Below, piece after piece: positions 5,661-19,367 of a stretch of 21,709 nt of DNA (its first letter is position 1; every line of letters starts with the position of its first letter). Location: positions 1-21,709 of the IMG/VR virus record IMGVR_UViG_3300020595_002135; one strand, written 5' to 3'. A model generated the notes under the pieces. That model was not told where the DNA came from, did no database searches, and saw nothing but the letters and a program-made list of their open reading frames with translations. The DNA is from a virus. The position numbers and the translations under genes were made by a program.

Positions 5661-6287
5661 TTATTTTCGAGCTACTATATCGTATTCATCGTTATCATCT
5701 TCCAAACCAAGTTCCTTAAGACGTTGGAGGTGGTAATCGTCTACTTCCCAATTTACTTCACCTTCGTTTACTGTTTTATGTTCTTCGATGTTTTCTATTT
5801 GCTTCTCAGTAAAGATATCACCAACAAATAAGAAGTAGTGGTTATAACAGAGTAACTCTATATTATCTAACCTGTAGTTTTTCTTGTTTTTGTCCTTGAA
5901 ATTTAGTAATAACGGCATTTTATAATCGAGGACACGACGCTCGTTGAACTCACACTGACTACACTGTTCTTCCAAGTATCCTTCGGTAATTAAACGGTAT
6001 TTTATTTTATCAGCATTAAAGTGAGACGGATCTACTCTACCTTCAATAATATCCATCAAAGCAGGATCTTTTTTCCCGTTTGTTAAAAACTTAGGAATAC
6101 CCTTACCAGCTTGGTTTTTATGTTTTTCAAACAAGGTTTCACCCGTTTCACTATCTTTATAAAGTGAAGCCCACTTTTTATAGTGGTTATAACTACAATT
6201 AAGATAACGAGCTGCTGCTCTGTTTGATAACGTTTTATTTTGAGCTGCTACAATCTGTTCTTTAGATAGGTCTTTAGCTGCGGGCAT
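5661..6287 (-). CDS. HTH plus HNH-like protein, catalytic His missing
   Basis: A 208-residue protein. Residues 7-43 form a helix-turn-helix-like region (SNRAAARYLNCSYNHYKKWA), as in phage homing-type HNH proteins. Residues 105-155 resemble an HNH/zinc-finger fold: Cys109 and Cys112, then PLLLNFKDKNKKNYRLDNIE, then LCYNH with Cys147 and His150. In active HNH enzymes the central segment reads roughly LxxxHxDGNxxNN. Here the catalytic His position appears to be Asn or Phe (LNFKDK), and the fourth zinc ligand is His instead of Cys. It therefore looks like a zinc-stabilised DNA-binding domain rather than a nuclease. The ATG follows immediately after the stop of the zinc-ribbon gene (TAA-ATG). Confidence 0.75.
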   Translation of the reverse strand: MPAAKDLSKEQIVAAQNKTLSNRAAARYLNCSYNHYKKWASLYKDSETGETLFEKHKNQAGKGIPKFLTNGKKDPALMDIIEGRVDPSHFNADKIKYRLITEGYLEEQCSQCEFNERRVLDYKMPLLLNFKDKNKKNYRLDNIELLCYNHYFLFVGDIFTEKQIENIEEHKTVNEGEVNWEVDDYHLQRLKELGLEDDNDEYDIVARK

Positions 6288-6507: not shown

Positions 6508-8517
6508 TTATAGGTTAATTAGTTCATTTTGGTATTCTGTCATCCCTTGTATTGAGATTTCGAGATTTCCTAATTTAAATTTACCTACTTGTCCACTATC
6601 TTTAATAATTTCACTTAATTGTTGGATAATACTAAAATCTTGTTGATTAAAGGTATTACCATCAATTCTAATAGTAATTTCACTCTCAACATTAGAGGCA
6701 TTTACCCTATTAGATAAATCAATTTGGGTATTAGGTTGTTCTTGTTGGATGTAAGGTTCAACTAAACTTTCATTATCTACGTAAATATGACTACACCATG
6801 GTTCCAATACTGTAAGTAGGTTTATATTAGAATTAAATACTCTAAATTCAACATCATACTTAGGTGGTACAATAGGTTTCATTAAAGCATCGTGTTTACA
6901 AAAATGCCCCCATTTACGTAAGAAGTTACGAGTTGATCTTACGTTTTGAGCTAACCACTCATCAGTTTCTCTATTCTTCATAAACACCTCACCATTTGGA
7001 TTCCTTTCAGCTCCATCTGCGAATCTACTACCTCTACAAGTCATATGGTAAACACATCCATGCCAAGTTTGAGTAAATTTAATCCCATTTAACTGGAAAC
7101 GATTAAATATGTCTGTATCTTCTTTTGATTGGGGAGCAAATAATGGGTCATGACCTCCTATTTCTTGGAAGTCTTTTTTATAAAACGCCCACGGGGCAAA
7201 TATACCCTCAGTGGTATCGTTATTAGGTACTCTTGAATCTAAGAAATCAAGTAATCCTTGTTCGTTAAATTCTTCTGGTTCAATACCAAAGTCTTTAAGT
7301 ATTTTTTCAGGTCCATCAGGGTGTAACGGTGGTTCGATTCTAGTAAGTGATACTATAGTTTTATCTGTAAGTTCATCTTCAATAGCATCTAAGGCACCAG
7401 GGCATAAGTACATATCAGCATGATAGATCATACAGATATCGTTTGTAGCTACGTCATTTACCAGAGTATCATATAATATAGTATGTCCTAATCTATCTGG
7501 ACCTTCGTTTCGGTGTGCTTTAAATAATGGGTCTTTATCCATCATCTCTAAACACCAATTCCAAGTCCCATCTGTAGAAGCATCATCTGCTACACAGATT
7601 TCTACTTCATGGTTCCCTTGATTTTTACGAATAGAATCATAAGACCATTTTAAATATTTAAGATTATTTCTACCGGGTTGTATTAATGATATTTTCATAG
7701 GTTGTTTTAATTTATCTTTGGGGGTTTTTTCTTTAGGATATGCTATTATATCTTGCCCACTTTTTATACTTCTAAATGTATTAATAAATCCTCGTTCATC
7801 CAAACTAGTAGTTAAAGAATCTAGTGAACAATCTCTTCCTTTATGTTGTTGGAAGACTTCATACCCTATTTCCTTTAATACTTTATAAAATTCTTTTACC
7901 TCTCTTAGGGATAAAGCAGGATATAACTCTACTTCTAATACGGGTCTAATTTTAGTAAATAAATTTTTATTTGATCTTAAAATTTTATAATCATAACCTT
8001 CAGTATCGATTTTAATAAAACTGATTTTATCCCATTCTTTTTTATCTAAATTTTCTTCTAACCAATCTGTTAGATTTACCCCTTCTACTTCTAAGGGTAC
8101 AACATGTCCTGTAGCTCCTATTCCCGTATCTATTTCTTCAGCAAACCCACCATTACAAAACCCATGATCTGAGTAATGGAATGTATATGTACCTGGTTTT
8201 TCTGTTACGGCTTTGGGTATTGGGATTATATTTAGGTGTTCATTTAACTTTGCGTTTGCTTCTAAAATTTCATAAGCATGGGGGTTAGCTTCAAAAGATA
8301 AAACTTTACCCTCTTTACCTACGGCATTAGCATATAAAATAGGAGTATCCCCTGAAAAAGCACCAATATCTATTACAATGTCCCCTTTGTTTAAATACTT
8401 AGTCTGAGTATCTACTTGGTCTAGAGTAAAAGTTTTAGGGGTACAATAAGGATGAGACCATTGAGCAAAATCAAATTTATATTTCCCCAAGTTAAATTTT
8501 TCAATCGTGTAATTCAT
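6508..8517 (-). CDS. FkbM methyltransferase-GT2 glycosyltransferase fusion
   Basis: A 669-residue bifunctional protein. Residues about 40-265 form an FkbM-type SAM-dependent methyltransferase: glycine-rich motif VIDIGAFSGDTP (about 48-59), SFEANP (74-79) and KIDTEGYDYKIL (about 169-180). Residues about 275-550 form a family-2 glycosyltransferase with the nucleotide-binding DDAST at about 311-315, and HADMYL near 367-372 in the position of the metal-binding DxD. About 110 further residues have no recognised domain. FkbM enzymes O-methylate sugars, and GT2 enzymes transfer from nucleotide sugars. The frame extends to a GTG at 8580 inside the upstream gene, but the ATG at 8517, just past the upstream stop, is preferred. 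It is the last gene of the glycan island. Confidence 0.85.
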   Translation of the reverse strand: MNYTIEKFNLGKYKFDFAQWSHPYCTPKTFTLDQVDTQTKYLNKGDIVIDIGAFSGDTPILYANAVGKEGKVLSFEANPHAYEILEANAKLNEHLNIIPIPKAVTEKPGTYTFHYSDHGFCNGGFAEEIDTGIGATGHVVPLEVEGVNLTDWLEENLDKKEWDKISFIKIDTEGYDYKILRSNKNLFTKIRPVLEVELYPALSLREVKEFYKVLKEIGYEVFQQHKGRDCSLDSLTTSLDERGFINTFRSIKSGQDIIAYPKEKTPKDKLKQPMKISLIQPGRNNLKYLKWSYDSIRKNQGNHEVEICVADDASTDGTWNWCLEMMDKDPLFKAHRNEGPDRLGHTILYDTLVNDVATNDICMIYHADMYLCPGALDAIEDELTDKTIVSLTRIEPPLHPDGPEKILKDFGIEPEEFNEQGLLDFLDSRVPNNDTTEGIFAPWAFYKKDFQEIGGHDPLFAPQSKEDTDIFNRFQLNGIKFTQTWHGCVYHMTCRGSRFADGAERNPNGEVFMKNRETDEWLAQNVRSTRNFLRKWGHFCKHDALMKPIVPPKYDVEFRVFNSNINLLTVLEPWCSHIYVDNESLVEPYIQQEQPNTQIDLSNRVNASNVESEITIRIDGNTFNQQDFSIIQQLSEIIKDSGQVGKFKLGNLEISIQGMTEYQNELINL

Positions 8518-8527
8518 TTGAATGTTT

Positions 8528-9505
8528 TTATATGATTTTACTACTCCCATCGGTATAAACATATCTGGTTCCCCTAACACAATTTTCTCTAATTGTTCTG
8601 TATGGGCAGAGAGTAATTATATCACTTCCTCCTCCTGAAGATATGTCTGTTATACCTGCTTGATAGCCTGCATTAAATAGTGCTTTTCGTTTTATATAAA
8701 TTTGTTCTCTAATATTTAACCCCAGTTCGGTAAAGTCAATTCTATTAGGAAAAAATTCATCCCATTTAGTTCCTTTTAAATTGTATTCAGCATAATAAAA
8801 TACTGGTTTATTTTTATATTTTTTGAGATAAGGGAACAAATGTTCTTCACCCTCCCAAACTCTTCCCTTAAGATGTTCTAATCTTGAAGCAAGTAATAAA
8901 CACCCATAATCATTTGAACCAATGTGTTCTTTAATTATATTATCACACTTATTTACTTCCTCAGGAGTAAAATATAACCTAGGAGAAACATCAATCGTTT
9001 TAAAATCATCATCAGTAAATCCAAAACGTCTTAGGATTTGTTCTGCTAAAGGTTCATCACATGAACGGATTTTTTCACCATCATGTATTAGTTTAGTATA
9101 AGACCTATCATGATCACTAAATACAACACTAAACTCTCCGGGTTCTATTGTTTTATCTATAAAAGGGTTATTAGCCATTACAAGATCTACATTAGTAGCC
9201 CCAGTATTTTGGGTGTTATAGTTCCACTGATCCATCCACCCAGTCCCAAAAATATGTTCAGTATAATCTTTAGAAGCAAATGCTATTTTTATGTTAGGGT
9301 ATTTTTGTTTAAGGGCTTCAAATATTCCTGAGGTGATTCCTAAATCCCCTATAGAATAACACATCCTCATAAAAGGAAACCACCCATCATAATCTTTAGG
9401 TAAAGTTCCAACCTTACCGCTTTGGATAGAATCATAGGGGACTCCTAGATATTCTACTTCTCCTAAAGAAGAGATTTTATCATTACGAATTACCCACTGC
9501 TGCAT
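8528..9505 (-). CDS. GT9-like (heptosyltransferase-type) glycosyltransferase
   Basis: A 325-residue protein. The segment MCYSIGDLGITSGIFEALKQ (from about residue 49) resembles the N-terminal Rossmann signature of GT9 heptosyltransferases, where a conserved Gly-Asp starts a helix. The C-terminal part has a Gly/Ser-rich loop (AGITDISSGGGSDIITLCPY), like the donor-binding site of GT-B enzymes. GT9 enzymes transfer heptose in lipopolysaccharide core assembly. A role as a PseG-like nucleotide-sugar hydrolase is an alternative, because that GT-B family shares the fold. The start at 9505 overlaps the acetyltransferase gene by 23 bases. The family call is by pattern and moderate; GT-B fold membership is more secure. 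Confidence 0.65.
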   Translation of the reverse strand: MQQWVIRNDKISSLGEVEYLGVPYDSIQSGKVGTLPKDYDGWFPFMRMCYSIGDLGITSGIFEALKQKYPNIKIAFASKDYTEHIFGTGWMDQWNYNTQNTGATNVDLVMANNPFIDKTIEPGEFSVVFSDHDRSYTKLIHDGEKIRSCDEPLAEQILRRFGFTDDDFKTIDVSPRLYFTPEEVNKCDNIIKEHIGSNDYGCLLLASRLEHLKGRVWEGEEHLFPYLKKYKNKPVFYYAEYNLKGTKWDEFFPNRIDFTELGLNIREQIYIKRKALFNAGYQAGITDISSGGGSDIITLCPYRTIRENCVRGTRYVYTDGSSKII

Positions 9506-9914
9506 AATATTCCATTTCTAGATATTTTCTCCCTCTAACCATTTTACTCTTTAGGGTATATTTAAACCCTAGTTTTTCGTATAATCCTCTTGCAAAATTA
9601 TCCCCAAAAACCCATAATGAAGCATATTCTTTATCTTTAAGATAGATTGTATAAGCTATCTTAGCATATCCCTTTCTTCTATAGTCTGGGTGGATATCGC
9701 ATCCAACTTCATTATTATTAGTTCTAATATATCCTACTGCATGTCTATTAATCTCAATAATAAACCATTTTGGATTATTTTTTCTAAACCATTCTAAGGA
9801 TTGTTTTAAAGTAAATTCAGAATCGTTTTCTAAGAATTGGAGAGTAGAGGGATTGTTTCTTATCTCCAATAGAAAAGGTAAATCATCTTCAGTTAAAGGT
9901 CTTAAGTTTACCAT
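9483..9914 (-). CDS. GNAT-family N-acetyltransferase
   Basis: A 143-residue single-domain GNAT protein. The acetyl-CoA pyrophosphate loop is visible as RRKGYA at residues 79-84, within VGCDIHPDYRRKGYAKIAY. The C-terminal motif DNFARGLYEKLGFKYTLKSK is typical of GNAT motif B. Members next to DegT aminotransferases commonly N-acetylate the amino group placed on a nucleotide sugar (as PseH, WecD or perosamine acetyltransferases do). The ATG at 9914 overlaps the aminotransferase stop by 7 bases, so the two are probably co-translated and sequential in a pathway. Protein or small-molecule acetylation cannot be excluded. Size and motifs are complete. Confidence 0.85.
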   Translation of the reverse strand: MVNLRPLTEDDLPFLLEIRNNPSTLQFLENDSEFTLKQSLEWFRKNNPKWFIIEINRHAVGYIRTNNNEVGCDIHPDYRRKGYAKIAYTIYLKDKEYASLWVFGDNFARGLYEKLGFKYTLKSKMVRGRKYLEMEYYAAVGNS

Positions 9915-11101
9915 CCTTTTTTAATACAGTTTACAATATATTCTCTTTCTTCAGGTGTTACCCACCAACCAACAGGGATTGAAACTATTTTACCAATAGT
10001 AGCATCTAAAGAAGGAAGTTCTGATTGGAATTCTCTAACACAAGTATGCTTATCATTACGTTCGTGAACTTGAGAAACTGCGATATTACATTTATCCATA
10101 TGTTTATAGAACTTATCTCTATCTTCTACTTTTAACGAATAAATCCAAAATGCGGAATCAAACCCTTGTTCACGTTTTAATAAAGTTACTTTATCAACAT
10201 TTTGTAAATGTTCATCATAATAAGCAGCGTTTTCTCTATGTTTGGAAATAATATCATCAGCATGTTTTAGATTTTCAATACCTACAGTAGCACAAACATC
10301 GTTCATGTGGAATTTATAACCCCATTCTTCAATATCAGCTTCACAACGGAAATCTTTTCTATCGCCATCTCTATCAATACCATACCAACGGATTAATTTA
10401 CCTCTTTGGTGTAATTCTTTATGAGGGGAAGTTAAAATACCACCATCAATAGAAGTAATATGTTTAATAGCTTGTAAAGAAAACATAGTTAAATTACCAT
10501 GATTACCAATACGTTTGCCTTTATATTCTGAACCGAATGAATGAGCTCCGTCTTCAATAACTGCTGGTTTGAAACCATACATTTTATGAGCTTTTTCTTG
10601 TATTTGTTTTACACGGTCTAAGTCATTAGGATACCCACCCCAGTGAACCAACATAATTACTTTAGTTTTAGGCGTAATTTTCCGCGCTAAATCATCAAGA
10701 TCCATATTAAGAGTATCTGGGTCAATATCAACCCACTTTAGTTTTAAACCATTTGCTAATACAGGCCAGTTTGAAGCTGTACAAGTCATAGCTGTTGCTA
10801 AAACTTCATCTCCAGGCTCTAAACCAGGCCATTTTTGATCCCAAAAAGCTACACCATCAAAGTTTTGTTTATGTGTTGCTGGTTTTTTAAGTAAATGTAA
10901 TGCCAGATGTAAAGCGGAAGTACCAGCATTTACAGTTTGGACATAATCATGATCAAAATATTTTTGCAAGTTATTCTCAAAAGTATCAACTTTAGGACCT
11001 TGACCAATGTATCCACTGTTTAATACTTTTGCTACCTCATCAGCAGCTGTATCAGCCATGAATACTTTAAATAGTGGAATTTTATTTTCGGGACTAAACA
11101 T
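9908..11101 (-). CDS. DegT/DnrJ/EryC1/StrS sugar aminotransferase
   Basis: A 397-residue PLP-dependent enzyme. Visible hallmarks are GTSALHLAL (60-68), contacting the cofactor phosphate; EDGAHSFG with Asp184 and His187; and the Schiff-base lysine Lys213 in SLQAIKHITSIDGG. It transfers an amino group, usually from glutamate, to a keto-sugar nucleotide, as in perosamine, pseudaminic acid or bacillosamine synthesis. An insertion around residues 72-97 (Trp/Lys rich) is longer than in many homologues. It is followed with a 7-base overlap by the GNAT gene, the usual partner for making N-acylated amino sugars. No 4,6-dehydratase is present in the window, so the keto-sugar must come from the host or from another part of the genome. 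Confidence 0.92.
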   Translation of the reverse strand: MFSPENKIPLFKVFMADTAADEVAKVLNSGYIGQGPKVDTFENNLQKYFDHDYVQTVNAGTSALHLALHLLKKPATHKQNFDGVAFWDQKWPGLEPGDEVLATAMTCTASNWPVLANGLKLKWVDIDPDTLNMDLDDLARKITPKTKVIMLVHWGGYPNDLDRVKQIQEKAHKMYGFKPAVIEDGAHSFGSEYKGKRIGNHGNLTMFSLQAIKHITSIDGGILTSPHKELHQRGKLIRWYGIDRDGDRKDFRCEADIEEWGYKFHMNDVCATVGIENLKHADDIISKHRENAAYYDEHLQNVDKVTLLKREQGFDSAFWIYSLKVEDRDKFYKHMDKCNIAVSQVHERNDKHTCVREFQSELPSLDATIGKIVSIPVGWWVTPEEREYIVNCIKKGW

Positions 11102-11104
11102 AAT

Positions 11105-11335
11105 TTATTGTGGGAATACTTCTACACAAAGTACATTTTTAGGGTTAATCATTATTAAAGTACCATCTGTTTGAAACAACTTAGTAAATTCACCTTGTTG
11201 AACTTTAGTTGTGTCTATATTATAAAAGGTACGTTTTTCTCCTCCTACAAAGTGAATAATTTGTGTCACTATAGGAGAAACCATCCTTACAGTAGACTTT
11301 AAATCTTCACTATTGATTCTATCTTGAGTATTCAT
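11105..11335 (-). CDS. Small unknown conserved phage protein, 76 aa
   Basis: A 76-residue protein with a beta-rich C-terminal half (VTQIIHFVGGEKRTFYNIDT ... GTLIMINPKNVLCVEVFP). The layout of a strand, a loop that includes Phe-Thr-Lys-Leu-Phe, and two closing strands suggests a small barrel or SH3-like domain. I have seen similar small proteins in T4-like marine phages but know no function. The ATG at 11335 overlaps the stop of the GT2 gene (TAATG), and the gene ends three bases before the aminotransferase start. Its presence among sugar genes may be accidental. Confidence 0.75.
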   Translation of the reverse strand: MNTQDRINSEDLKSTVRMVSPIVTQIIHFVGGEKRTFYNIDTTKVQQGEFTKLFQTDGTLIMINPKNVLCVEVFPQ

Positions 11336-11961
11336 TATAAGGTATCGTAATAAGCGTTTTGTTTCTCTTGACGCTTAATAGTTTTATTATGGATTAGAGC
11401 AAAATCTTCTTCCAGAGGCAATATTGAGTGGGTAGCATGACCGATGATTTTTTCATGAACTTCTCCATGCCATTTGATACGTGGGTCATTTTTGTAAATT
11501 CTCCACTGCATATCAGGCCAATTTACTCTACCTTTACCATCAACAATCCAACCCCATTTTTGAATGTGAGCTTCAGTTAATCCTTCTACTCTGTTGATAC
11601 GGGGAACTCTAATCAAATCAGTTTCAGTATTAGCCGCTAGGATTTGGGGTAAGATACGAACCATATACTCAGTAACCATTTCATCAGCATCAATCTGGAA
11701 GATGTAATCACCAGTACATAATGAGTTGAGTCTATTTTTCATAGCAGCAAAGTTACCATCAAAACTATAAGATTCCCACCTAAATAAAGATTTTTCAGTA
11801 TTCATCTTACGTAAATAAGACTCTACTTCTTTATCACCATTTTTAGAATCGTATAGAACTACGATTTCGTCTTCACTTCTTTTGTTTTCAAGAAGGAATG
11901 AGACGAGTTGTTGAATCTCAACAAACTCATTACAGACCGGTATTGCGTAACTAATTTTCAT
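11335..11961 (-). CDS. GT2 family glycosyltransferase
   Basis: A 208-residue GT-A fold glycosyltransferase. The N-terminus MKISYAIPVCNE is the usual start of family 2, the nucleotide-binding Asp lies in VVLYDSKNGD (near 38), and the metal-binding DxD is Asp91-Ala-Asp93-Glu94 (FQIDADEM). The C-terminal WHGEVHEKI segment is typical of GT2 proteins that build cell-surface glycans. It is short, lacking any membrane anchor or second domain, which suits a soluble enzyme adding one sugar. Its 3' end overlaps the small gene 11105-11335 by one base. Donor and acceptor cannot be inferred. Confidence 0.88.
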   Translation of the reverse strand: MKISYAIPVCNEFVEIQQLVSFLLENKRSEDEIVVLYDSKNGDKEVESYLRKMNTEKSLFRWESYSFDGNFAAMKNRLNSLCTGDYIFQIDADEMVTEYMVRILPQILAANTETDLIRVPRINRVEGLTEAHIQKWGWIVDGKGRVNWPDMQWRIYKNDPRIKWHGEVHEKIIGHATHSILPLEEDFALIHNKTIKRQEKQNAYYDTL

Positions 11962-11964
11962 ATT

Positions 11965-12366
11965 TTATCCTGGTAGTGCCCCAATATACGAAAGACCATC
12001 CATATAATCACGTTCATCAAAGTGTTTTATTGTAGACATATCCATTTTTTCCCCTGACTCATCTGAGAGGACAGCTCCCCACTTCCAGTTACTGCCATTT
12101 GTTCCATCAGCAAATACCATTCCTTGAGAGGGTATATTAACTGTGTTAGGCATCCAAACTAAACCATCCTCATCCTCGCCCATTAGTTCTTTATATAAAT
12201 CTGGGAGGGATTCCATCTGTTCGTTAAGGAATTCTGAATCTTTAGTCATCAAGGTATTAGTAATAAAACCACATCCAAAACAACTATAGGTTTTGATTTT
12301 ATCGTTTACTTCCTGTACATAACATGCATCGGAACCACATCTAGAGCAAATTGTTAAGTTATCCAT
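11965..12366 (-). CDS. Zinc-ribbon protein, 133 aa
   Basis: A 133-residue protein with an N-terminal zinc ribbon: Cys7/Cys10 (ICSRCG) and Cys29/Cys32 (CFGCGF), 18 residues between pairs. The remainder is acidic with several Asp/Met/Trp patches (GLVWMPNTVNIPSQGMVFAD, SNWKWGAVLSDESG) that look like a small beta domain. Four-Cys ribbons of this kind occur in transcription factors and in conserved phage proteins of unknown role. The ATG at 12366 overlaps the stop of the upstream GT4 gene by one base. It may be a passenger within the glycan operon rather than a pathway enzyme. Confidence 0.78.
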   Translation of the reverse strand: MDNLTICSRCGSDACYVQEVNDKIKTYSCFGCGFITNTLMTKDSEFLNEQMESLPDLYKELMGEDEDGLVWMPNTVNIPSQGMVFADGTNGSNWKWGAVLSDESGEKMDMSTIKHFDERDYMDGLSYIGALPG

Positions 12367-13634
12367 TATAGTTTTTGTAATTTAGGTAGTTCTAGTTTTA
12401 TTTGTTTTGGGATTTCTGGGATGTTTGAATCTAAAATATTATCAAGGGTTTCAGCCATCTTTGACAAGCTAAAGTTGGTTTTACTATAGTAAGCTTGACG
12501 TTTACCCCCATCTATATAGTTTTTATAGTTTTCAAACATACCTTTTAAAGCACCTCCTATTTCTCCTGTATTTGGAGCAAACCACTTAGACCCTTCAATC
12601 AACATATCCTTTACTTGAGCTGTTGGGTGGATAGGTTTTAATTCACCTCCTAACAGAGTAGTAAAATCTTTATGTAAGAAATCGATTTGACCACTCCAGT
12701 TAGTGGAGATTATAGGTTTCCCTGTAACACTAAACTCTAATAATGGTCTACCAAATCCTTCCCCTTTAGTAAGGTTAACCATAGCCTTTACTTTAGAATG
12801 GTTATAGATTGAATTCATTTCCTCATCAGTAAAGTTACCATGAAGGAGGTATACGTTAGGTAAGTTCTTTGAGTTAACCGTATTTTTAATCTGTGTGATT
12901 CTTTTAACTATCTCATCTCTATCCATGTAAGAACCACCTGTTATAGATGTTTTTAAAATGAGTGCTGGTTGGGTTTTCTTGTTTTTAAAGGTTTCAAAGA
13001 ATGCTTTAATCATTAAACTCACATTCTTTCTATCCTCACTCATACTTCCTGGTAACCAGTGTCCTACAAATAGATAAGCGAATGATTCTTTAATATTAAA
13101 ATCAACCATACAAGGACTATCATCAGGGAAGTAGGTATCTAAATTAACCCCTTCAAATAAAACCTCAACTGGTTTTTGCAATTTAAGTTCACCTGTAGTT
13201 TGTTTTGTATTTTGATCCTTAACCTCAAACTTAGTGTTTTCAAATACTGATTTACTATGATTTGAGGAAACAATGTTTAAGTCCATTCTATTCATACCCT
13301 CAATCCATTGGGGAGCACAAGTATCAGTTTCAATCCCAGCTGTAAAACCAATATTATAATCACCAATAGGAGTAAACTCATTTGGTACTGTGATTTGAGC
13401 CCAAATGTTAGGTTTTTCGCTTAATCTAGCTCCTATAGGGAGGAGATGGGGTGTTAAGAAGTGCCATTCTTCATGGTCTTCAATAAAGCCCCAAGAGGTA
13501 TTACCCCAACGTTGAGGCATAATCTTAACATCGTATTTATCGCTTTCTATGATTGATTTTACAACATCTCTACTACGTGCTCCGTAGCCTGAGTAAGTAT
13601 CAATAGGACAGCTTATAATAAAAGTATTCTTCAT
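12366..13634 (-). CDS. GT4-type glycosyltransferase
   Basis: A 422-residue GT-B enzyme. The N-terminal acceptor domain shows SGYGARSRDV near residue 15. The C-terminal donor-binding domain shows FEGVNLDTYFP (160-170), FVGHWLPGS (189-197) and the retaining-GT signature E-x7-E as Glu292 and Glu300 in KGEGFGRPLLEFSVTGKPII. GT4 enzymes transfer from nucleotide-activated hexoses to lipid- or protein-linked glycans. It lies one base after the second GT4 gene; the two are clearly different in sequence, so they probably add different sugars rather than being a recent duplication. Soluble; no membrane helix. Confidence 0.9.
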   Translation of the reverse strand: MKNTFIISCPIDTYSGYGARSRDVVKSIIESDKYDVKIMPQRWGNTSWGFIEDHEEWHFLTPHLLPIGARLSEKPNIWAQITVPNEFTPIGDYNIGFTAGIETDTCAPQWIEGMNRMDLNIVSSNHSKSVFENTKFEVKDQNTKQTTGELKLQKPVEVLFEGVNLDTYFPDDSPCMVDFNIKESFAYLFVGHWLPGSMSEDRKNVSLMIKAFFETFKNKKTQPALILKTSITGGSYMDRDEIVKRITQIKNTVNSKNLPNVYLLHGNFTDEEMNSIYNHSKVKAMVNLTKGEGFGRPLLEFSVTGKPIISTNWSGQIDFLHKDFTTLLGGELKPIHPTAQVKDMLIEGSKWFAPNTGEIGGALKGMFENYKNYIDGGKRQAYYSKTNFSLSKMAETLDNILDSNIPEIPKQIKLELPKLQKL

Positions 13635-13635
13635 C

Positions 13636-15063
13636 TTAATATAACAATTTATGTGGCAGTGTAGGGGTTTTTACTTCAGTAACATTTAAAAACTCATAGT
13701 TTTCTCGAGGTTTCCAAGTATTAAACATTTCATCTACACCTTCGATTACTCGTTCACCCATTATTTCAGCTGTAAATCCTGCTTCTTTACTTAAAGCCCA
13801 TTCTCTACCTTCAAGACCTAGTTTTTGTCTTTCTTCCTTAGATAGATTATAAACTTCCATAATCCTATCAGCAGCATCTTCTGGTCTACATCTGTCATCC
13901 CAAATGTAAGGGGTTACAGGTGAACCTTGGATTGATCTGTTTGTTGGGAATACTGGGAACGCCCAGTTACCATGCTCTTTATATCTCCCAGTATGGTTAG
14001 AAGGAACATCAGCATCTGGGGTAAACCATTTACCGTTTTCATCAGCAAATCTCATTTGATCCTGCATACCACCAGTTACATTAGCTATAATAGGAGTACC
14101 AGATAAGATAGCTTCAGTTAGTGATAAACCCCATCCTTCGTTTGAAGTTAATAGGATTTGAACATCTGCTAAGTTATAAAGATAGTTTAGTTGATCTCTA
14201 CTTAACTTGCTAGTTGAAAATAAGATTGATGTATCATCCTCCCCAAACAGATAGTTTTTAACAGCCATTAAATCTGTACCATGATCTGATACTATCTCTG
14301 TGTGGAGTAATAGTTTAACTTTAGATTGTTTTTCTTGAGGTAGTTGTTCTTTAAAGTATTTAAAAGCTAATAAAGTATCTGGGATTTGTTTTCTTCTAAT
14401 ATTTCTTGAGTTGTAGAATACAACAAAATCATCCTCATTAATCCCTATTTGGGTTTTAAAATCTTTGTAATCCTTAAGATTAGTATCAATAGGTTTAAAT
14501 GTATCAGCATCTAAACCGTGAGGAACATACTTTAAAGTTTTGTTCTTTAGTTTTTCACCTAACACTAACCTGTTGATATTCACTGTTTGTTTTGAAATAC
14601 CAAACAAAGCATCACACGATTCGTAAAACGGTCTATTATACATTGGAGCAGGATAGTTATCCCAAATGTTTAAATAAGCGATAGGGATCTCTTTTCTAAT
14701 CTCGTTCTCAATCTGGAATAACCACATAAAATAACGTGGGTCTGTAATCAAGAAGATAGCATCTATTTTCTCCGTTTTGATTAACTTCCTAACTTGATCA
14801 GGATTACCATAGCCATTATTACATTGGATAACAACGTTAGCGTCTTCAATCCCTAGTTGGGTATTGATCTCACTACTAACATCAAATCTTTTACCTTCAT
14901 CAGGATGTTGTACAGCAGCTCCTAGATTAAACCAGTTAAAACGATGAGCTGTGTTTGTAGCTATTTCACGCCCTACGTTTGCAACACCTGAATGGACTCG
15001 GATGTCATCACAGAGCAAAAGAATACGTTTTCTCTGCTCTCTTGGAATATAACCTTCTTTCAT
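13636..15063 (-). CDS. GT4-type glycosyltransferase
   Basis: A 475-residue GT-B enzyme. The N-terminal motif RILLLCDDIRVHSGVANVGR (13-32) is a Rossmann start with the acceptor-site loop. The donor domain has VPHGLDADTF (180-189), FYNSRNIRRKQ (217-226) and the E-x7-E pair Glu309/Glu317 in NEGWGLSLTEAILSGTPII. It is larger than its neighbour because of an insertion near the C-terminus (about 345-385) rich in Pro/Trp/Asp. The gene follows the ribbon-helix-helix gene by four bases. Substrates unknown; a role in assembling the island's glycan is inferred from context. Confidence 0.9.
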   Translation of the reverse strand: MKEGYIPREQRKRILLLCDDIRVHSGVANVGREIATNTAHRFNWFNLGAAVQHPDEGKRFDVSSEINTQLGIEDANVVIQCNNGYGNPDQVRKLIKTEKIDAIFLITDPRYFMWLFQIENEIRKEIPIAYLNIWDNYPAPMYNRPFYESCDALFGISKQTVNINRLVLGEKLKNKTLKYVPHGLDADTFKPIDTNLKDYKDFKTQIGINEDDFVVFYNSRNIRRKQIPDTLLAFKYFKEQLPQEKQSKVKLLLHTEIVSDHGTDLMAVKNYLFGEDDTSILFSTSKLSRDQLNYLYNLADVQILLTSNEGWGLSLTEAILSGTPIIANVTGGMQDQMRFADENGKWFTPDADVPSNHTGRYKEHGNWAFPVFPTNRSIQGSPVTPYIWDDRCRPEDAADRIMEVYNLSKEERQKLGLEGREWALSKEAGFTAEIMGERVIEGVDEMFNTWKPRENYEFLNVTEVKTPTLPHKLLY

Positions 15064-15067
15064 TTAT

Positions 15068-15253
15068 TTAGAGTTCTAAATCGTTGTGATTAGTAATTGT
15101 TTTTCTAAAATCTTCATCTGTAAGATACAAATAAATAGCACGGTCAGCAAGTTTTTGGAATGAAAACTTACGCTTTACGCACTCGATTTTGAACGTCTCA
15201 AAAAGATCACTTTTGATCTTTACTGAGGTTAATGTCATATCTTTTTTAGCCAT
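15068..15253 (-). CDS. Ribbon-helix-helix-like DNA-binding protein, 61 aa
   Basis: A 61-residue basic protein (MAKKDMTLTSVKIKSDLFET...). A short strand (MTLTSVKI) is followed by two helices separated by a turn, in the layout of Arc/MetJ ribbon-helix-helix repressors: strand, helix A (DLFETFKIECVKRK), turn (FSFQ), helix B (KLADRAIYLYLTD). Such proteins bind operators as dimers with the strand in the major groove. Small proteins of this type are common in T4-like phages. Placed at the head of the two GT4 genes, it could regulate the glycan operon, although no operator has been recognised. Confidence 0.65.
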   Translation of the reverse strand: MAKKDMTLTSVKIKSDLFETFKIECVKRKFSFQKLADRAIYLYLTDEDFRKTITNHNDLEL

Positions 15254-15261
15254 AACGTTAA

Positions 15262-15687
15262 TTAATTATTTATTATTTTATAATGTGAAAAATTAGGATA
15301 TTTTTCGGGTTTTAATAGTCTTGCTTTTATTTGATGGGCATCGAGGTTATACTTTTTACCTACTTTATAAAAACTTGGGTATTGAGTATTAGTTAAAGTA
15401 TCTAAAATTTTATAATCATTTTTTTTAGGTGAAAAATCAACAATATCTCCAATCATCCAATCTTCATTATCTTTTAATGCTTCTTTATTAAGTAAATTAT
15501 ACCCTTCTTCTTTTAACTTTTCTACCCAAAATATCTCTCTATCTTCAAAAGTATCTAAGATTTTGATTCTTAGAGAGTCATCATTATAAGTTATCCTATG
15601 ACAACTGAGTCTGACTTTGGGGGTAGTTGATTTCCCCACATATATAATTTCTTCTTTTCTTAGTAGCCCATAAATGTATACTATCAT
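15262..15687 (-). CDS. GIY-YIG nuclease domain protein
   Basis: A 141-residue protein with an N-terminal GIY-YIG fold: YIYGLLRKEEIIYVGKS carries both halves of the signature (Tyr4-Ile-Tyr6-Gly and Tyr16-Val-Gly18), followed by Arg26 (KVRLSCH) and a helix with the metal-binding Glu candidates 56-61 and Asn64 (WVEKLKEEGYNLLNKE). The C-terminal half (YPSFYKVGKKYNLDAHQIKA) looks like a small helix-turn-helix of the kind found in homing endonucleases. This is the usual build of free-standing phage homing enzymes. It interrupts the sugar genes with its own non-coding gap upstream, in keeping with a selfish insertion. Active residues appear intact. Confidence 0.82.
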   Translation of the reverse strand: MIVYIYGLLRKEEIIYVGKSTTPKVRLSCHRITYNDDSLRIKILDTFEDREIFWVEKLKEEGYNLLNKEALKDNEDWMIGDIVDFSPKKNDYKILDTLTNTQYPSFYKVGKKYNLDAHQIKARLLKPEKYPNFSHYKIINN

Positions 15688-15697
15688 AATCCATAAA

Positions 15698-15705
15698 TAT
15701 TTATA
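15698..15705 (-). promoter_or_regulatory. TATAAATA, possible T4-type late promoter
   Basis: The minus strand reads TATAAATA here, identical to the T4 late promoter core, 10 bases before the ATG of the GIY-YIG gene. I found no other copy on the minus strand in the window. The region is very AT rich, so chance is a real possibility, and the leader would be almost nil. Confidence 0.25.
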
Positions 15706-15732
15706 TCCATATGATACGTATATAACTATCCT

Positions 15733-16134
15733 TTAAAAGTTAAACTCTGTTGTAAAAAAATCTATAGTAGAGGACCAATCTGTAAATCTATACCCTCTAT
15801 CATCAATATACACAATAGCTCTTGGTTTCTCACAGGTGATTTCCTTAATGTATGAATCAATCTCATACTTAGCAAGCCATTCCCATATTAGTTCCTCACC
15901 CGTTTTACCCTGTACTAAAGGACGATCAGGTTTTACCTTCGCTGTAAACAAAACAATATCCAACCCTTGACTATAAAACCACTTAATAGCTTCAACAGAA
16001 CCTTCCATAGGTGGATCATATACAGTCCCATCGTGGAACCCCTTTGAACTCTCATGAATAACACCATCAAAGTCTATAGCTACCTGATTGTTATTTTCGT
16101 GGTGTTGGAGTTTATCGTATTCTTCTATGTTCAT
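15733..16134 (-). CDS. HAD-family phosphatase
   Basis: A 133-residue minimal HAD protein with all motifs: nucleophile and acid Asp21 and Asp23 (AIDFDGVIHE), motif II Thr64 (VLFTAK), Lys103 (KPRAIVYIDDR) and Asp111/Asp112. HAD phosphatases remove phosphate from sugars or nucleotides. The ATG overlaps the stop of the aldolase/cytidylyltransferase fusion by four bases. That context makes an ulosonate-phosphate phosphatase role (as KdsC has in Kdo synthesis) attractive, but the sequence does not prove it. Small phage HAD proteins of similar size occur outside sugar loci, so a nucleotide or polynucleotide phosphatase role remains possible. No cap domain. Confidence 0.85.
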   Translation of the reverse strand: MNIEEYDKLQHHENNNQVAIDFDGVIHESSKGFHDGTVYDPPMEGSVEAIKWFYSQGLDIVLFTAKVKPDRPLVQGKTGEELIWEWLAKYEIDSYIKEITCEKPRAIVYIDDRGYRFTDWSSTIDFFTTEFNF

Positions 16135-17813
16135 ATTCGTTCTTCTACTATTTTAATGTCTTCTGGGTAATCTACAGCGTGAGTATTTCCGTCTACCATT
16201 AACATTTTTACTTTATAACCTAACTCCAAAAATCTAATGATTTCTATATCTTCTTGGGTTTCTAAAGGAGTTTTATTACCGGCTTCAGTAAACGTTTGTA
16301 AGTGTTCTCGATTAAAAGCATAAATACAAACTTGTTTTTTAGGGTTAACTCCATTACCTGTCTTAGTTCCTGGGATTGGGTTTCTACTCATATAGATAAG
16401 TTCATCTTGTAGGTTAGTAATAACCTTTGGGATTTTCTTATCTTCTACATCTTCCCTATTGTTTAGATATGCCATACAGTTTACTATATGGTTAGGATTT
16501 TCTAACTTACAATCTATAACTTTTTGAATATCTTTAGGATCTAACATTGGTTCATCACCCTGGATATTAATGATTATATCAGCGTCTATTTCTAAAGATG
16601 CTTCTGCTACTCTATCTGTACCAGTTAAACACGAATCGGAGGTAAGGATTACTTTATAACCATAACTTTTAACAACGTCTACAATCTCTTCATTCTCAGT
16701 TGCTATGTATACATTTTCTAAACCTACGGCTTGTTCAGCTATACCTGCTACCCAAAGAATCATTTCTTTTCCTTTTATTTTAGCTAAAGGTTTACCAGGG
16801 AATCTAGAAGATTTGTACCTCGCAGGAATAACAACAGCTACTTTAGGTACCATTTGGTCTTCGATTTTTGTTTTATCAAATGTTAACGGATCCTCTATTT
16901 GGAGTAGTATATCTTGTATACGATTAGAGTTTAAAAATGAGCTTTGTAGTGTTTGTGTGTATAAAGGATGGATATGGTTAATCCCACTTACCATATAGTT
17001 ATGAGTGAACCCCCATTTGTATTCCTTTTGTAGTGGTTTCATCCACTTATTTATCAGTTTTTGTACTGGGTTGGGGTTATATTTTTCTGAGAGGTAAGTA
17101 ACTAGTTGTTCTGTTTTTACATTACCTACTCCCCTACCCATTCCTAATAAAGTACCATCTACATAAGATATTCCAGAATCCATTCCAACTAAACAGTTAG
17201 CAAAAGCTAATCCTAGATTATCATGGGTGTGGATACCTATTGGGGTATTAAACTTACTAAAGAGCTTAGATATTCTTTCTACGTCCTTAGGTTCTAGATT
17301 ACCATATGAATCTGCAAAATACAAGGATTCAGGGGATAAATCAGATAGTGTACCAAACTCTATTATTTCTTTATCCGAAAGTAAAGATATACCCATCAAG
17401 TTGATTATGAGGTTATACCCTTTATTTTTTATATATTGTCCTATTTCTTTTGCTAAATCTATTTCTGTGTGTTTGATTGCTAACCTACAGATTGAGAACG
17501 GGGATTCGTTTTTATTGTGTATTACATCATCGATTAAAGAATAATCTACTACATCCCCCTTAATAAAGTCTTTAGCATCAATCATAAACGCTAACTCAGA
17601 GTTGACTGGGAGTTTATGCTCTAGGATTTCCCAAATAAATCTATCATTACACTTACGATATTTTCCACCCTTTACAGGAGATTTATAACCAAGTTCAATA
17701 ATATCTATTCTGCTTAAATCTAAGCTAGTTATTAAATCTCTAACCATTTGGGTGTTAAAATCCCAGTTAGTATAATAACCACCATCCCTTAAGGTGCAGT
17801 CTAATAACTTCAT
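16131..17813 (-). CDS. HMGL-like aldolase fused to CMP-Kdo synthetase-like domain
   Basis: A 560-residue fusion. Residues 1-310 form a DRE-TIM (HMG-CoA lyase/hydroxy-oxovalerate aldolase type) barrel: CTLRDGG at 6-12, metal ligands in HTHDNLGLA at 195-203, and DGTLLGMGRGVGN at 219-231. Residues 324-560 form a KdsB-type cytidylyltransferase: IPARYKSSRFPGKPLAKIKG (329-348), GTDRVAEA (398-405), NIQGDEP (416-422) and AVDYPED (546-552). KdsB activates 3-deoxy-ulosonic acids as CMP sugars; DRE-TIM aldolases join or split pyruvate and an aldehyde. A single chain could therefore make and activate a 2-keto-3-deoxy sugar acid. All key residues of both halves are present. It overlaps the FkbM gene upstream and the HAD gene downstream by four bases each. 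Confidence 0.88.
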   Translation of the reverse strand: MKLLDCTLRDGGYYTNWDFNTQMVRDLITSLDLSRIDIIELGYKSPVKGGKYRKCNDRFIWEILEHKLPVNSELAFMIDAKDFIKGDVVDYSLIDDVIHNKNESPFSICRLAIKHTEIDLAKEIGQYIKNKGYNLIINLMGISLLSDKEIIEFGTLSDLSPESLYFADSYGNLEPKDVERISKLFSKFNTPIGIHTHDNLGLAFANCLVGMDSGISYVDGTLLGMGRGVGNVKTEQLVTYLSEKYNPNPVQKLINKWMKPLQKEYKWGFTHNYMVSGINHIHPLYTQTLQSSFLNSNRIQDILLQIEDPLTFDKTKIEDQMVPKVAVVIPARYKSSRFPGKPLAKIKGKEMILWVAGIAEQAVGLENVYIATENEEIVDVVKSYGYKVILTSDSCLTGTDRVAEASLEIDADIIINIQGDEPMLDPKDIQKVIDCKLENPNHIVNCMAYLNNREDVEDKKIPKVITNLQDELIYMSRNPIPGTKTGNGVNPKKQVCIYAFNREHLQTFTEAGNKTPLETQEDIEIIRFLELGYKVKMLMVDGNTHAVDYPEDIKIVEERI

Positions 17814-18424
17814 TTAAAGTTAGGGTTTACAAAGAATATATCAGCTCCTATCCTTTTTTCTTCTAAATAAATAAACCCTTTTGATTCCATAAGAGCTATA
17901 ATATCTTTTTGGGTTTTTTGATTTTTATATTGTTCTCTATCAGAAGTTTCACATCTAATATAATGAGTTTTATCTAATAAATCACCCATTCCTTCTAATA
18001 TCTCATATTCAGTTCCCTGAGTATCTAGTTTTAAATAAGAAATATAAGGAAGATTAGGAATAACATTTTCCATTAAATCTACTTCAACTTGAGTAACTTG
18101 ATAGTTGGTTACATCTGGCCTATTAACCCAAGCTTCCTCTTCAGGAGGACGTAATGAAGAACAATCTTGTTTATCTGTTAAGTAAAAATCAAATGTTCCC
18201 TTTTTATTGGATAACGCTGTAGGGTAAATATGAAAATTAGTTAATTCTCCAAATCGTTCTATTAATTTGTTGTAAAAATCTATATTTGGTTCAAATAGAT
18301 GAACCTCTAAGTTGGGGTGAAGTTTAATTTCTTCCATACTAAGATTTCTTAATATAAAGCCATCCGGATATTCCATGGCTGCTGGGAATCCTGTTGCTCC
18401 CACATCTACAATAATTTTTTTCAT
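17810..18424 (-). CDS. FkbM-family methyltransferase
   Basis: A 204-residue SAM-dependent methyltransferase. Motif I is IIVDVGATGFPAAM (about 4-17), the ribose-binding acid lies in HLFEPN (near 42-47), and the FkbM-specific motif is LKLDTQGTEYEILEGMG (about 131-147). FkbM enzymes O-methylate sugar hydroxyls in antibiotics and surface glycans. The frame can be read from a GTG at 18445, but the ATG at 18424, one base after the nuclease stop, is preferred because MKKIIVDVG is a standard start for this fold. First gene of the glycan island. The GYDY found after the motif in the larger FkbM fusion is replaced by TEYE here, so the two are not recent duplicates. Confidence 0.88.
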   Translation of the reverse strand: MKKIIVDVGATGFPAAMEYPDGFILRNLSMEEIKLHPNLEVHLFEPNIDFYNKLIERFGELTNFHIYPTALSNKKGTFDFYLTDKQDCSSLRPPEEEAWVNRPDVTNYQVTQVEVDLMENVIPNLPYISYLKLDTQGTEYEILEGMGDLLDKTHYIRCETSDREQYKNQKTQKDIIALMESKGFIYLEEKRIGADIFFVNPNFK

Positions 18425-18425
18425 A

Positions 18426-19367
18426 TTAATCAGCTGTAGCCCCACATAAGGCTGTTTTAAAGTAAGGACACCACTTACAATTATTATTAGTTAAAGCAGG
18501 CATATCTTTTTCATTAAACCCATCTTTGGTAAAACAATTATCTAAAAATTCATTTAAGGATTTTGTAGCTTGATTAACTGATGTTTTACCTGAAGGTGGT
18601 CTGAATTGTTGGATACGTTTGATTACAAAATCTTGTGATTCATATAATTTACGTTTTACAATAAAGAACTCAATATCAATATCATCTATTGGGACGTTGT
18701 ATTGTTTAGCAAAAAACTTCTTATACAATACTAACTGATGTTGTTTTGATTTATCTTTCTTTGCTTTATCATTCCAACCTCTTGTAGATGTTTTTATATC
18801 GATTATAATAAACTTCTTTGTATTCTCGTTATACATCACCACATCCAAAAAGCCCATGTATTTAACACGAGGTAAGTGCGGATTAGGTGCTAATACGATT
18901 GGTATCTCACAACCAACTAACCACCAACCACGTTTAGAAAAATATTTACCTCTATTCTTCTTTAAATACCTTATAATTTCAACACCGTCGGAATAGAATT
19001 CTCGAAGTGTTGAGGCGTCAGTAAAATGTTCTCCTTTATTCTGTTTATAAGCGTCTGCATAGCAATCTCTTAATCTGGTTTCAAAATCTGTTTCTAAATC
19101 TATTTTGTCAGCCTCAGCACCACTTTTATTATACATTACATCTAGATACATTTGTAGTGTCTCGTGTAGTGCTGTTCCAAAAGTCATGTGAATACTTTGT
19201 TCCTTAACTTTATGTCCATCTCTATATTGCAACGCCCACTTTTTAGGACATTGGGTATACATTGATAGCTGTGAATATGAGATGTTTTTCTCATAAGCAA
19301 AGTTCACAGGTTCAGGTGGATTCTGTTGTATTTCTCTAACTATTTGGGGTGCTTTCTTTTTAGCCAA
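18426..19367 (-). CDS. Cas4/RecB-like PD-(D/E)XK nuclease with Fe-S motif
   Basis: A 313-residue nuclease. In order: Cys40 (TQCPKKW), His68 (GTALHET), Glu154, catalytic Asp175 (GFLDVV), Asp190-x-Lys192 (IIDIKTS), the QxxxY motif at Gln211/Tyr215 (HQLVLYKK), and Cys297, Cys300 and Cys308 (NCKWCPYFKTALC). One N-terminal and three C-terminal cysteines form the 4Fe-4S cluster known from Cas4, AddB and Dna2. Such enzymes resect single-stranded ends in replication or recombination; many T4-like phages carry one near replication genes. The only suitable start is TTG at 19367 (read MAKKKAPQIV), since the next ATG would delete the first cysteine region. No Cas genes or arrays are nearby. Confidence 0.88.
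   Translation of the reverse strand: MAKKKAPQIVREIQQNPPEPVNFAYEKNISYSQLSMYTQCPKKWALQYRDGHKVKEQSIHMTFGTALHETLQMYLDVMYNKSGAEADKIDLETDFETRLRDCYADAYKQNKGEHFTDASTLREFYSDGVEIIRYLKKNRGKYFSKRGWWLVGCEIPIVLAPNPHLPRVKYMGFLDVVMYNENTKKFIIIDIKTSTRGWNDKAKKDKSKQHQLVLYKKFFAKQYNVPIDDIDIEFFIVKRKLYESQDFVIKRIQQFRPPSGKTSVNQATKSLNEFLDNCFTKDGFNEKDMPALTNNNCKWCPYFKTALCGATAD

Follow-up and report, generated by a model that had tools for sequence, protein, structure and literature searches.

An aldolase fused to a CMP-sugar synthetase in a phage glycan island: a candidate route to activated ulosonic acids

Gene content of the island

The virus record IMGVR_UViG_3300020595_002135 (IMG/VR) was analysed over its entire length of 21,709 bases, referred to below as the window; as it is a linear fragment (21.7 kb), absences within it prove little. 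It carries a glycan biosynthesis island, all open reading frames (ORFs) of which lie in a single run on the minus strand, and which includes an aldolase and a cytidine monophosphate (CMP)-transferase joined in one polypeptide of 560 residues. Searches with Pfam, NCBIfam and PHROG profiles identified two FkbM (PF05050), two GT2 (PF00535) and two GT4 (PF00534) domains in the island, together with GNAT, DegT (PF01041), an HMGL-like aldolase, CTP_transf_3 and an HAD-type protein, in agreement with the inventory of an earlier note that had been made from the sequence alone. That note had placed the island at 6508-18424; the stand-alone FkbM gene in fact ends at 18445, and a GIY-YIG-like ORF, a 61-residue ORF and two small ORFs of unknown kind were added within the run. 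The features are as follows.

16131..17813, minus strand: fusion protein, 560 residues, aldolase (1 to about 290) and CMP-sugar synthetase (324-560); PF00682 83 bits, PF02348 141 bits
15733..16134, minus strand: small HAD-type phosphatase, 133 residues; PHROG 1238 62 bits; 4-base overlap with the fusion gene
17810..18445, minus strand: stand-alone FkbM methyltransferase, 211 residues; PF05050 52 bits, TIGR01444 60 bits
15262..15687, minus strand: GIY-YIG-like ORF; PF01541 18.9 bits, below the cut-off of 22.6
15068..15253, minus strand: small conserved ORF, 61 residues; 51-57% identity in L003, L009 and phage immuto; no Pfam match
13636..15063, minus strand: GT4 b, 475 residues, conserved core; PF00534 49 bits; 53% identity to immuto, 41% to Microcystis phage Mel-JY01
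12366..13634, minus strand: GT4 a, 422 residues, conserved core; PF00534/PF13692 over cut-off; 55% identity to immuto, 45% to Mel-JY01
11965..12366, minus strand: small conserved ORF of unknown kind, 133 residues; 44% identity to immuto; no Pfam match
11335..11961, minus strand: GT2, 208 residues, conserved core; PF00535 32 bits; 54% identity to immuto
11105..11335, minus strand: small conserved ORF of unknown kind, 76 residues; 64% identity to immuto
9908..11101, minus strand: DegT/DnrJ sugar aminotransferase, AtmS13/CalS13-like; PF01041 247 bits; 49.5% identity to 4xau over 370 residues
9483..9914, minus strand: GNAT acetyltransferase, 143 residues; PF00583 38 bits
8528..9505, minus strand: GT-B protein, weakly GT9-like, 325 residues; Foldseek 3tov, E value 5e-4, probability 1.00; model pLDDT 54
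6508..8580, minus strand: FkbM methyltransferase fused to GT2, 690 residues; PF05050 60 bits, PF00535 30 bits; GT2 half 46% identical to immuto
5661..6287, minus strand: HNH endonuclease-like, conserved island flank; PHROG 14736; 49% identity to immuto
18426..19367, minus strand: PD-(D/E)XK/Cas4-like nuclease, conserved island flank; PHROG 69; 40% identity to immuto

Two-domain fusion protein

Residues 1 to about 290 of the fusion protein matched the structural-genomics entry 3dxi, titled 'putative aldolase' (profile E value 6e-55), and DmpG (2e-25), and residues 324-560 matched KpsU, the capsule CMP-3-deoxy-D-manno-octulosonate (Kdo) synthetase (1gq9; 3e-53). The CMP half scored 283 against a cut-off of 255 for NF009905, the Kdo-type CMP-transferase subfamily, which places it in the KdsB type and bears out the earlier proposal of a CMP-activated sugar acid; with the stricter KdsB equivalog models it scored 157 against 281 and 135 against 155. 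The motifs IPARYxSxRFPGKP and NIQGDEP were retained. In the aldolase half, the metal site of DRE-TIM metallolyases (HOA/DmpG-like) was found: R9, D10, H195, H197 and N199, which from general knowledge of the residue roles in DmpG we take to be its metal/enolate positions, were invariant in 19 phage sequences and essentially so in 82 bacterial sequences. The fusion was kept in 15 IMG/VR contigs and was found in none of the isolate phages of the collection. Its aldolase halves formed one clade (support 0.94), with the single-cell contig L022 included.

A fusion in the reverse order, with a NeuA-type CMP-transferase at the N terminus and an HMGL-type aldolase at the C terminus, was observed in L159 (5808-7427), L160 (8389-10008) and L161 (8386-10008), directly ahead of a sialyltransferase-like gene. 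Since the domain orders are opposite and the CMP-transferases differ, the aldolase/CMP-transferase fusion arose at least twice.

The HAD-type protein encoded beside the fusion gave no Pfam match; PDB matches were 9iqw (5e-5), 1xpj (7e-5) and the GmhB-type 4pnh (0.004), and D21-x-D23 was invariant. Two other phage contigs carry an HAD phosphatase within a protein of 322-345 residues (L155, 8964-9998; L156, 9043-10008). An isomerase-HAD fusion is not claimed for these, the N terminus of the L155 protein being only weakly phosphoheptose-isomerase-like, below the cut-off.

Bacterial homologues

The aldolase and a KdsB-like gene were found together at 80 bacterial or archaeal loci (one of which is the single-cell phage contig L022), mostly adjacent and usually as separate genes, in Bacteroidetes, Gammaproteobacteria, Pelagibacter, Prochlorococcus and one archaeon. 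This list had been ranked on both domains and is biased for co-occurrence, and the search was repeated with the aldolase alone in 295 genomes of Bacteroidia, to which L039 belongs, and in 274 of Gammaproteobacteria, to which L029 belongs. Full-length homologues were rare (three in Bacteroidia and six in Gammaproteobacteria, seed genomes counted). All six readable non-seed full-length contexts contained an HAD phosphatase, and five contained a CMP-transferase by Pfam or BLAST (L119, L120, L122, L124 and L126, of which L119 is a contig already listed as locus L025). The sixth, L123, has the same layout, with an unscanned 217-residue ORF at the position of the L122 CMP-transferase. The short aldolases of L121, L127 and L128 were accompanied by neither gene. 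In L023 and L119, polysialyltransferase-like genes (PF07388) come next. Keyword searches of the literature returned no experimental study of the bacterial aldolase/KdsB-like/HAD operon, and we know of none.

In two of these operons, the gene after that of the HMGL-type aldolase encodes an HpcH/HpaI pyruvate aldolase (L122, 4371-5129; L123, 4387-5148). The bacterial aldolases carry an additional C-terminal domain of about 220 residues that gave no Pfam match. In L023 (5977-7596) and other bacterial aldolases, this domain has a G-x-G-x-S-like start and an 'IYLAGFDGY' motif, which recall sialyltransferase/Maf-like folds. The likeness was noted by eye and hhalign gave 33% over 20 columns; a sialyltransferase-like domain is not claimed.

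Sialyltransferase-like partner protein

Six related islands encode, near the fusion, a protein of 260-275 residues with a GGPSL-type motif. Its model (predicted local distance difference test, pLDDT, 76; predicted template modelling score, pTM, 0.83) matched the GT42 sialyltransferase CstII with Z 10.1 over 179 residues at 4.1 Å; the two have the GGPSL motif in common and an identity of about 15%. The top 22 structure rows were mostly sialyltransferases, plus an MptE-type pterin kinase, SteA and a chain titled only 'glycosyltransferase', and the next row had Z 4.5. The protein is thus predicted to have a sialyltransferase fold.

When IMG/VR was scanned for this protein, 47 loci were obtained, which fell into 31 clusters at 80% identity. 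A CMP-transferase or NeuB lay near it in 31 of 31 clusters, as against five of 32 control islands (Fisher 5e-13, uncorrected for relatedness). The controls were islands defined by the GT4 core; none carried the partner transferase, and 27 had no CMP-transferase or NeuB. Four types of neighbour were distinguished: the aldolase-KdsB fusion, the NeuA-aldolase fusion (L159-L161), a KdsB-type gene with an HpcH/HpaI aldolase (L155, L183), and NeuB, nearly always with NeuA. Because each occurs beside the sialyltransferase-like protein, across 31 of 31 clusters, the aldolase-CMP fusion and NeuB+NeuA appear to hold the same functional slot. Roughly half of the clusters have an HAD protein together with the KdsB-type module. 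The GT52 sialyltransferase Lst can use CMP-Kdo (PMC8092323).

The HpcH/HpaI-type pyruvate aldolase genes adjoin the KdsB-type gene at 8232-8906 in L155 and 7163-7897 in L183. In a large group of phage contigs (L162-L178), NeuB, mostly with NeuA, adjoins the partner protein; these are classical nonulosonic acid modules.

Phage context and host

The island is flanked on one side by the phage clamp-loader subunits (gp44, gp62) and a PD-(D/E)XK nuclease, and on the other by an HNH gene. The same framework was found in phage contigs L002-L009 and L013-L015. In the isolate Flavobacterium phage vB_FspM_immuto (Immutovirus, NC_055915), the flanking nuclease and HNH genes and the core gene order are alike (nuclease, 61-residue ORF, GT4, GT4, small ORF, GT2, DegT, small ORF ... 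GT2 ... HNH; 40-64% identity). With its GT4-GT4-GT2 core between nuclease and HNH genes, the island in the window belongs to the Immutovirus type; in the immuto island, the aldolase-CMP fusion, the HAD gene and the sialyltransferase-like protein were not found. The nuclease, the two GT4 genes and the GT2 gene are also present in Microcystis phage Mel-JY01. A megablast of the whole window against isolate phages gave zero matches.

The island is real and viral, as the earlier note had held. Host contamination, which that note had named as its possible undoing, is excluded, because the synteny with phage replication genes is seen again in an isolate as well as in numerous phage contigs. The breadth of the set, which it had thought rare among phages, is not new. 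Wide-ranging glycan islands had been described in phages before, a syntenic one is present in immuto, a scan of IMG/VR with the GT4 core gave at least 600 matching stretches (595 confirmed among the matches listed), and the part of PMC7824862 consulted describes a 15-gene lipopolysaccharide (LPS) cluster in cyanophage P-SSM2. The latter is likewise a large phage-borne cluster of sugar and glycosyltransferase genes; it is presented there through epimerases, kinases and nucleotidyltransferases, with no aldolase-CMP fusion mentioned in that part. We regard the island as a variable cassette for glycosylation, carried by a T4-type marine phage and of an ordinary kind, which contains an unusual conserved module, the aldolase-CMP fusion; the earlier expectation of something undescribed finds partial support in this module.

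Contig L022 (1-4182; 4.2 kb) of the Bacteroidetes single-cell assembly AG-903-E05 encodes the fusion (70% identity), the HAD protein and a short-chain dehydrogenase/reductase (SDR), and is probably phage DNA within a bacterial assembly. Together with the Flavobacterium phage immuto, it hints that the host of the window phage is probably a member of the Bacteroidetes.

Comparison with known pathways

No NeuB-type synthase was found among the ORFs scanned in the window, as had been noted earlier, nor in the 177- and 181-kb relatives that bear the same fusion; NeuB is present in the L010 group. KdsA was found in G008 only, among eight related records, and no KdsD-type SIS domain exceeded the cut-off in 12 records. 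The missing synthase is probably not missing, as the aldolase half of the fusion may stand in for it. Compared with the Kdo pathway (KdsD-KdsA-KdsC-KdsB), the window likewise has a Kdo-type CMP-transferase with an HAD protein beside it, but carries a fused HMGL-type aldolase in place of the phosphoenolpyruvate (PEP)-dependent KdsA.

The bacterial operons (Saccharospirillum, Flaviramulus, Prochlorococcus and Pelagibacter, among L023-L101) also have a homologous aldolase adjacent to a CMP-transferase, a phosphatase next to them and, in some, a polysialyltransferase-like gene; they differ in having separate genes, the extra aldolase domain and another HAD subfamily. DmpG (4-hydroxy-2-oxovalerate aldolase) and 3dxi share with the fusion the DRE-TIM homology, the conserved R/D pair and the two metal-binding histidines, whereas in the window a domain of about 300 residues is fused to a CMP-transferase.

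The DegT protein was most similar in structure searches to AtmS13 and CalS13 (49.5% identity to AtmS13), which are aminotransferases acting on nucleoside diphosphate (NDP)-4-keto sugars in aminosugar formation. In relative L007, a uridine diphosphate (UDP)-glucose dehydrogenase-like gene and SDR genes are present, which could supply the substrate for a DegT-type aminotransferase.

Proposed function and alternatives

We consider it probable that the fusion is a two-step enzyme that forms an ulosonic acid from pyruvate and then activates it, in place of NeuB/KdsA, and that the resulting glycan is most likely placed on a virion protein. The aldolase half would condense pyruvate with an aldose to give a 2-keto-3-deoxy sugar acid. 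The aldose may be phosphorylated, in which case the adjacent HAD protein would remove the phosphate. The CMP half would then couple the sugar acid to CMP. The PEP-dependent step of NeuB or KdsA would thereby be replaced, and activation with CMP would pull the reversible aldol reaction forward. In related phages, the sialyltransferase-fold enzyme near the fusion would be the expected user of the CMP-sugar. In a separate branch, DegT and GNAT would give an N-acetylated amino sugar; soluble GT4, GT2 and GT9 enzymes would build the glycan, and the FkbM enzymes would methylate it. The likeliest acceptor would be a virion protein, glycosylated in the cytoplasm. No membrane proteins were predicted in the islands of the window, L007, L009, L013 and immuto. 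In mycobacteriophages, phage enzymes are known to glycosylate the virion (Freeman 2023, cited in the consulted part of PMC12619734).

Several observations weigh against this proposal. The position of the DmpG catalytic residue His21 is occupied by Tyr (Tyr13 in the window) or Phe. The sialyltransferase-like profile had no match in the visible part of the window and L002 with all filters off, whereas the other fusion lineages carry the gene, so that the expected user of the CMP-sugar is known from related phages; in the window and L002 the fusion and HAD genes lie ahead of the GT4 pair, and in the partner-bearing relatives they lie after GT2. The phage HAD protein differs from the HAD_2 type found in the bacterial operons, and it resembles heptose phosphatases as well. 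The co-occurrence counts include related phages without correction. Several phages carry the fusion plus NeuB or KdsA; therefore, the two modules may make different sugars.

The strongest competitor, to which we give appreciably less weight, is that the island rebuilds a host surface polysaccharide (O-antigen or capsule) during infection, for example against superinfecting phages. Cyanophage LPS clusters have been read in this way (PMC7824862, in the part consulted), the bacterial aldolase/CMP-transferase homologues are found in loci for surface polysaccharides, where Polysacc_synt and polysialyltransferase-like genes are neighbours, and an export route of the host could still be supplied by soluble enzymes; against it, no membrane protein, flippase, polymerase or initiating lipid transferase was predicted in the five islands named above. 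Of the three targets considered earlier (virion, host envelope and phage DNA), the virion protein would rank first and the host envelope second.

A pseudaminic or legionaminic acid-type pathway with its dehydratase and NeuB outside the fragment is unlikely. DegT, GNAT and a CMP-transferase are present and NeuB occurs in some related phages, and the earlier note had likened these genes and the GT-B gene to PseC, PseH, PseF and PseG. The scores do not sustain this analogy: DegT reached 205 bits where the PseC model requires 423, GNAT 24 where PseH requires 93 and the CMP-transferase 30 where PseF requires 206, the CMP-transferase being Kdo-type; the GT-B protein weakly resembles GT9, and the 177- and 181-kb relatives with the fusion yielded no NeuB.

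About equally improbable is a reading in which the aldolase half moonlights or uses a substrate other than pyruvate, and in which the two genes were joined by chance through their overlap: the replaced catalytic His would fit such a view, but two independent fusions in opposite orders, the conserved metal site and the conserved operon in distant bacteria argue against it.

FkbM enzymes and CMP-sugar acids are, to our knowledge, not known from DNA modification. Decoration of the phage DNA (a hypermodified base) was set aside as very improbable: although T4-type phages glucosylate DNA and phage glycosyltransferases can build diverse DNA glycans (cited in the part of PMC12619734 consulted), of four island carriers, the 177-kb relative and Mel-JY01 lack the thymidylate-synthase/dCMP-hydroxymethylase family expected for glycosyl-hydroxymethyl-pyrimidines, and immuto has 7-deazaguanine DNA-modification genes instead.

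As far as we know, the characterised CMP-ulosonic acids (Kdo, sialic, pseudaminic and legionaminic) are all made by PEP-dependent synthases. More tentatively than the two-step enzyme itself, we suggest that phages and diverse bacteria may share an undescribed, PEP-independent route to CMP-ulosonic acids, in which a pyruvate aldolase of DmpG or HpcH/HpaI type, either coupled to a CMP-transferase or fused with it, would be exchangeable for NeuB+NeuA, feed a sialyltransferase-fold enzyme and serve to glycosylate phage virions. Literature searches on an aldolase-based CMP-ulosonate pathway and on modules for NeuB or ulosonates in phages turned up no direct description, with few subscription papers covered. 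If the proposal is correct, the two-domain aldolase/CMP-synthetase would be a new entry to CMP-ulosonic acids, of use in chemoenzymatic synthesis, and would help to predict the surface sugars of marine bacteria in which the two genes are separate, among them Prochlorococcus, Pelagibacter and flavobacteria. The target of marine phage glycosylation becomes testable, because the isolated relative immuto shares the glycosyltransferase core.

Other island ORFs

The ORF at 8528-9505 had been called GT9-like. Family profiles gave no match, and the sole PDB match below 1e-3, obtained with the low-scoring model listed above, was the GT9 structure 3tov; the assignment is kept as a weak one. The 61-residue ORF sits ahead of the GT4 pair in several relatives. 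The GIY-YIG-like ORF lies between the HAD gene and the 61-residue ORF, where the alignment to the sister contig L002 shows a gap. Because L002 is otherwise near-identical to the window, its lack of this ORF suggests a recent homing-type insertion in the window, or a loss in the sister.

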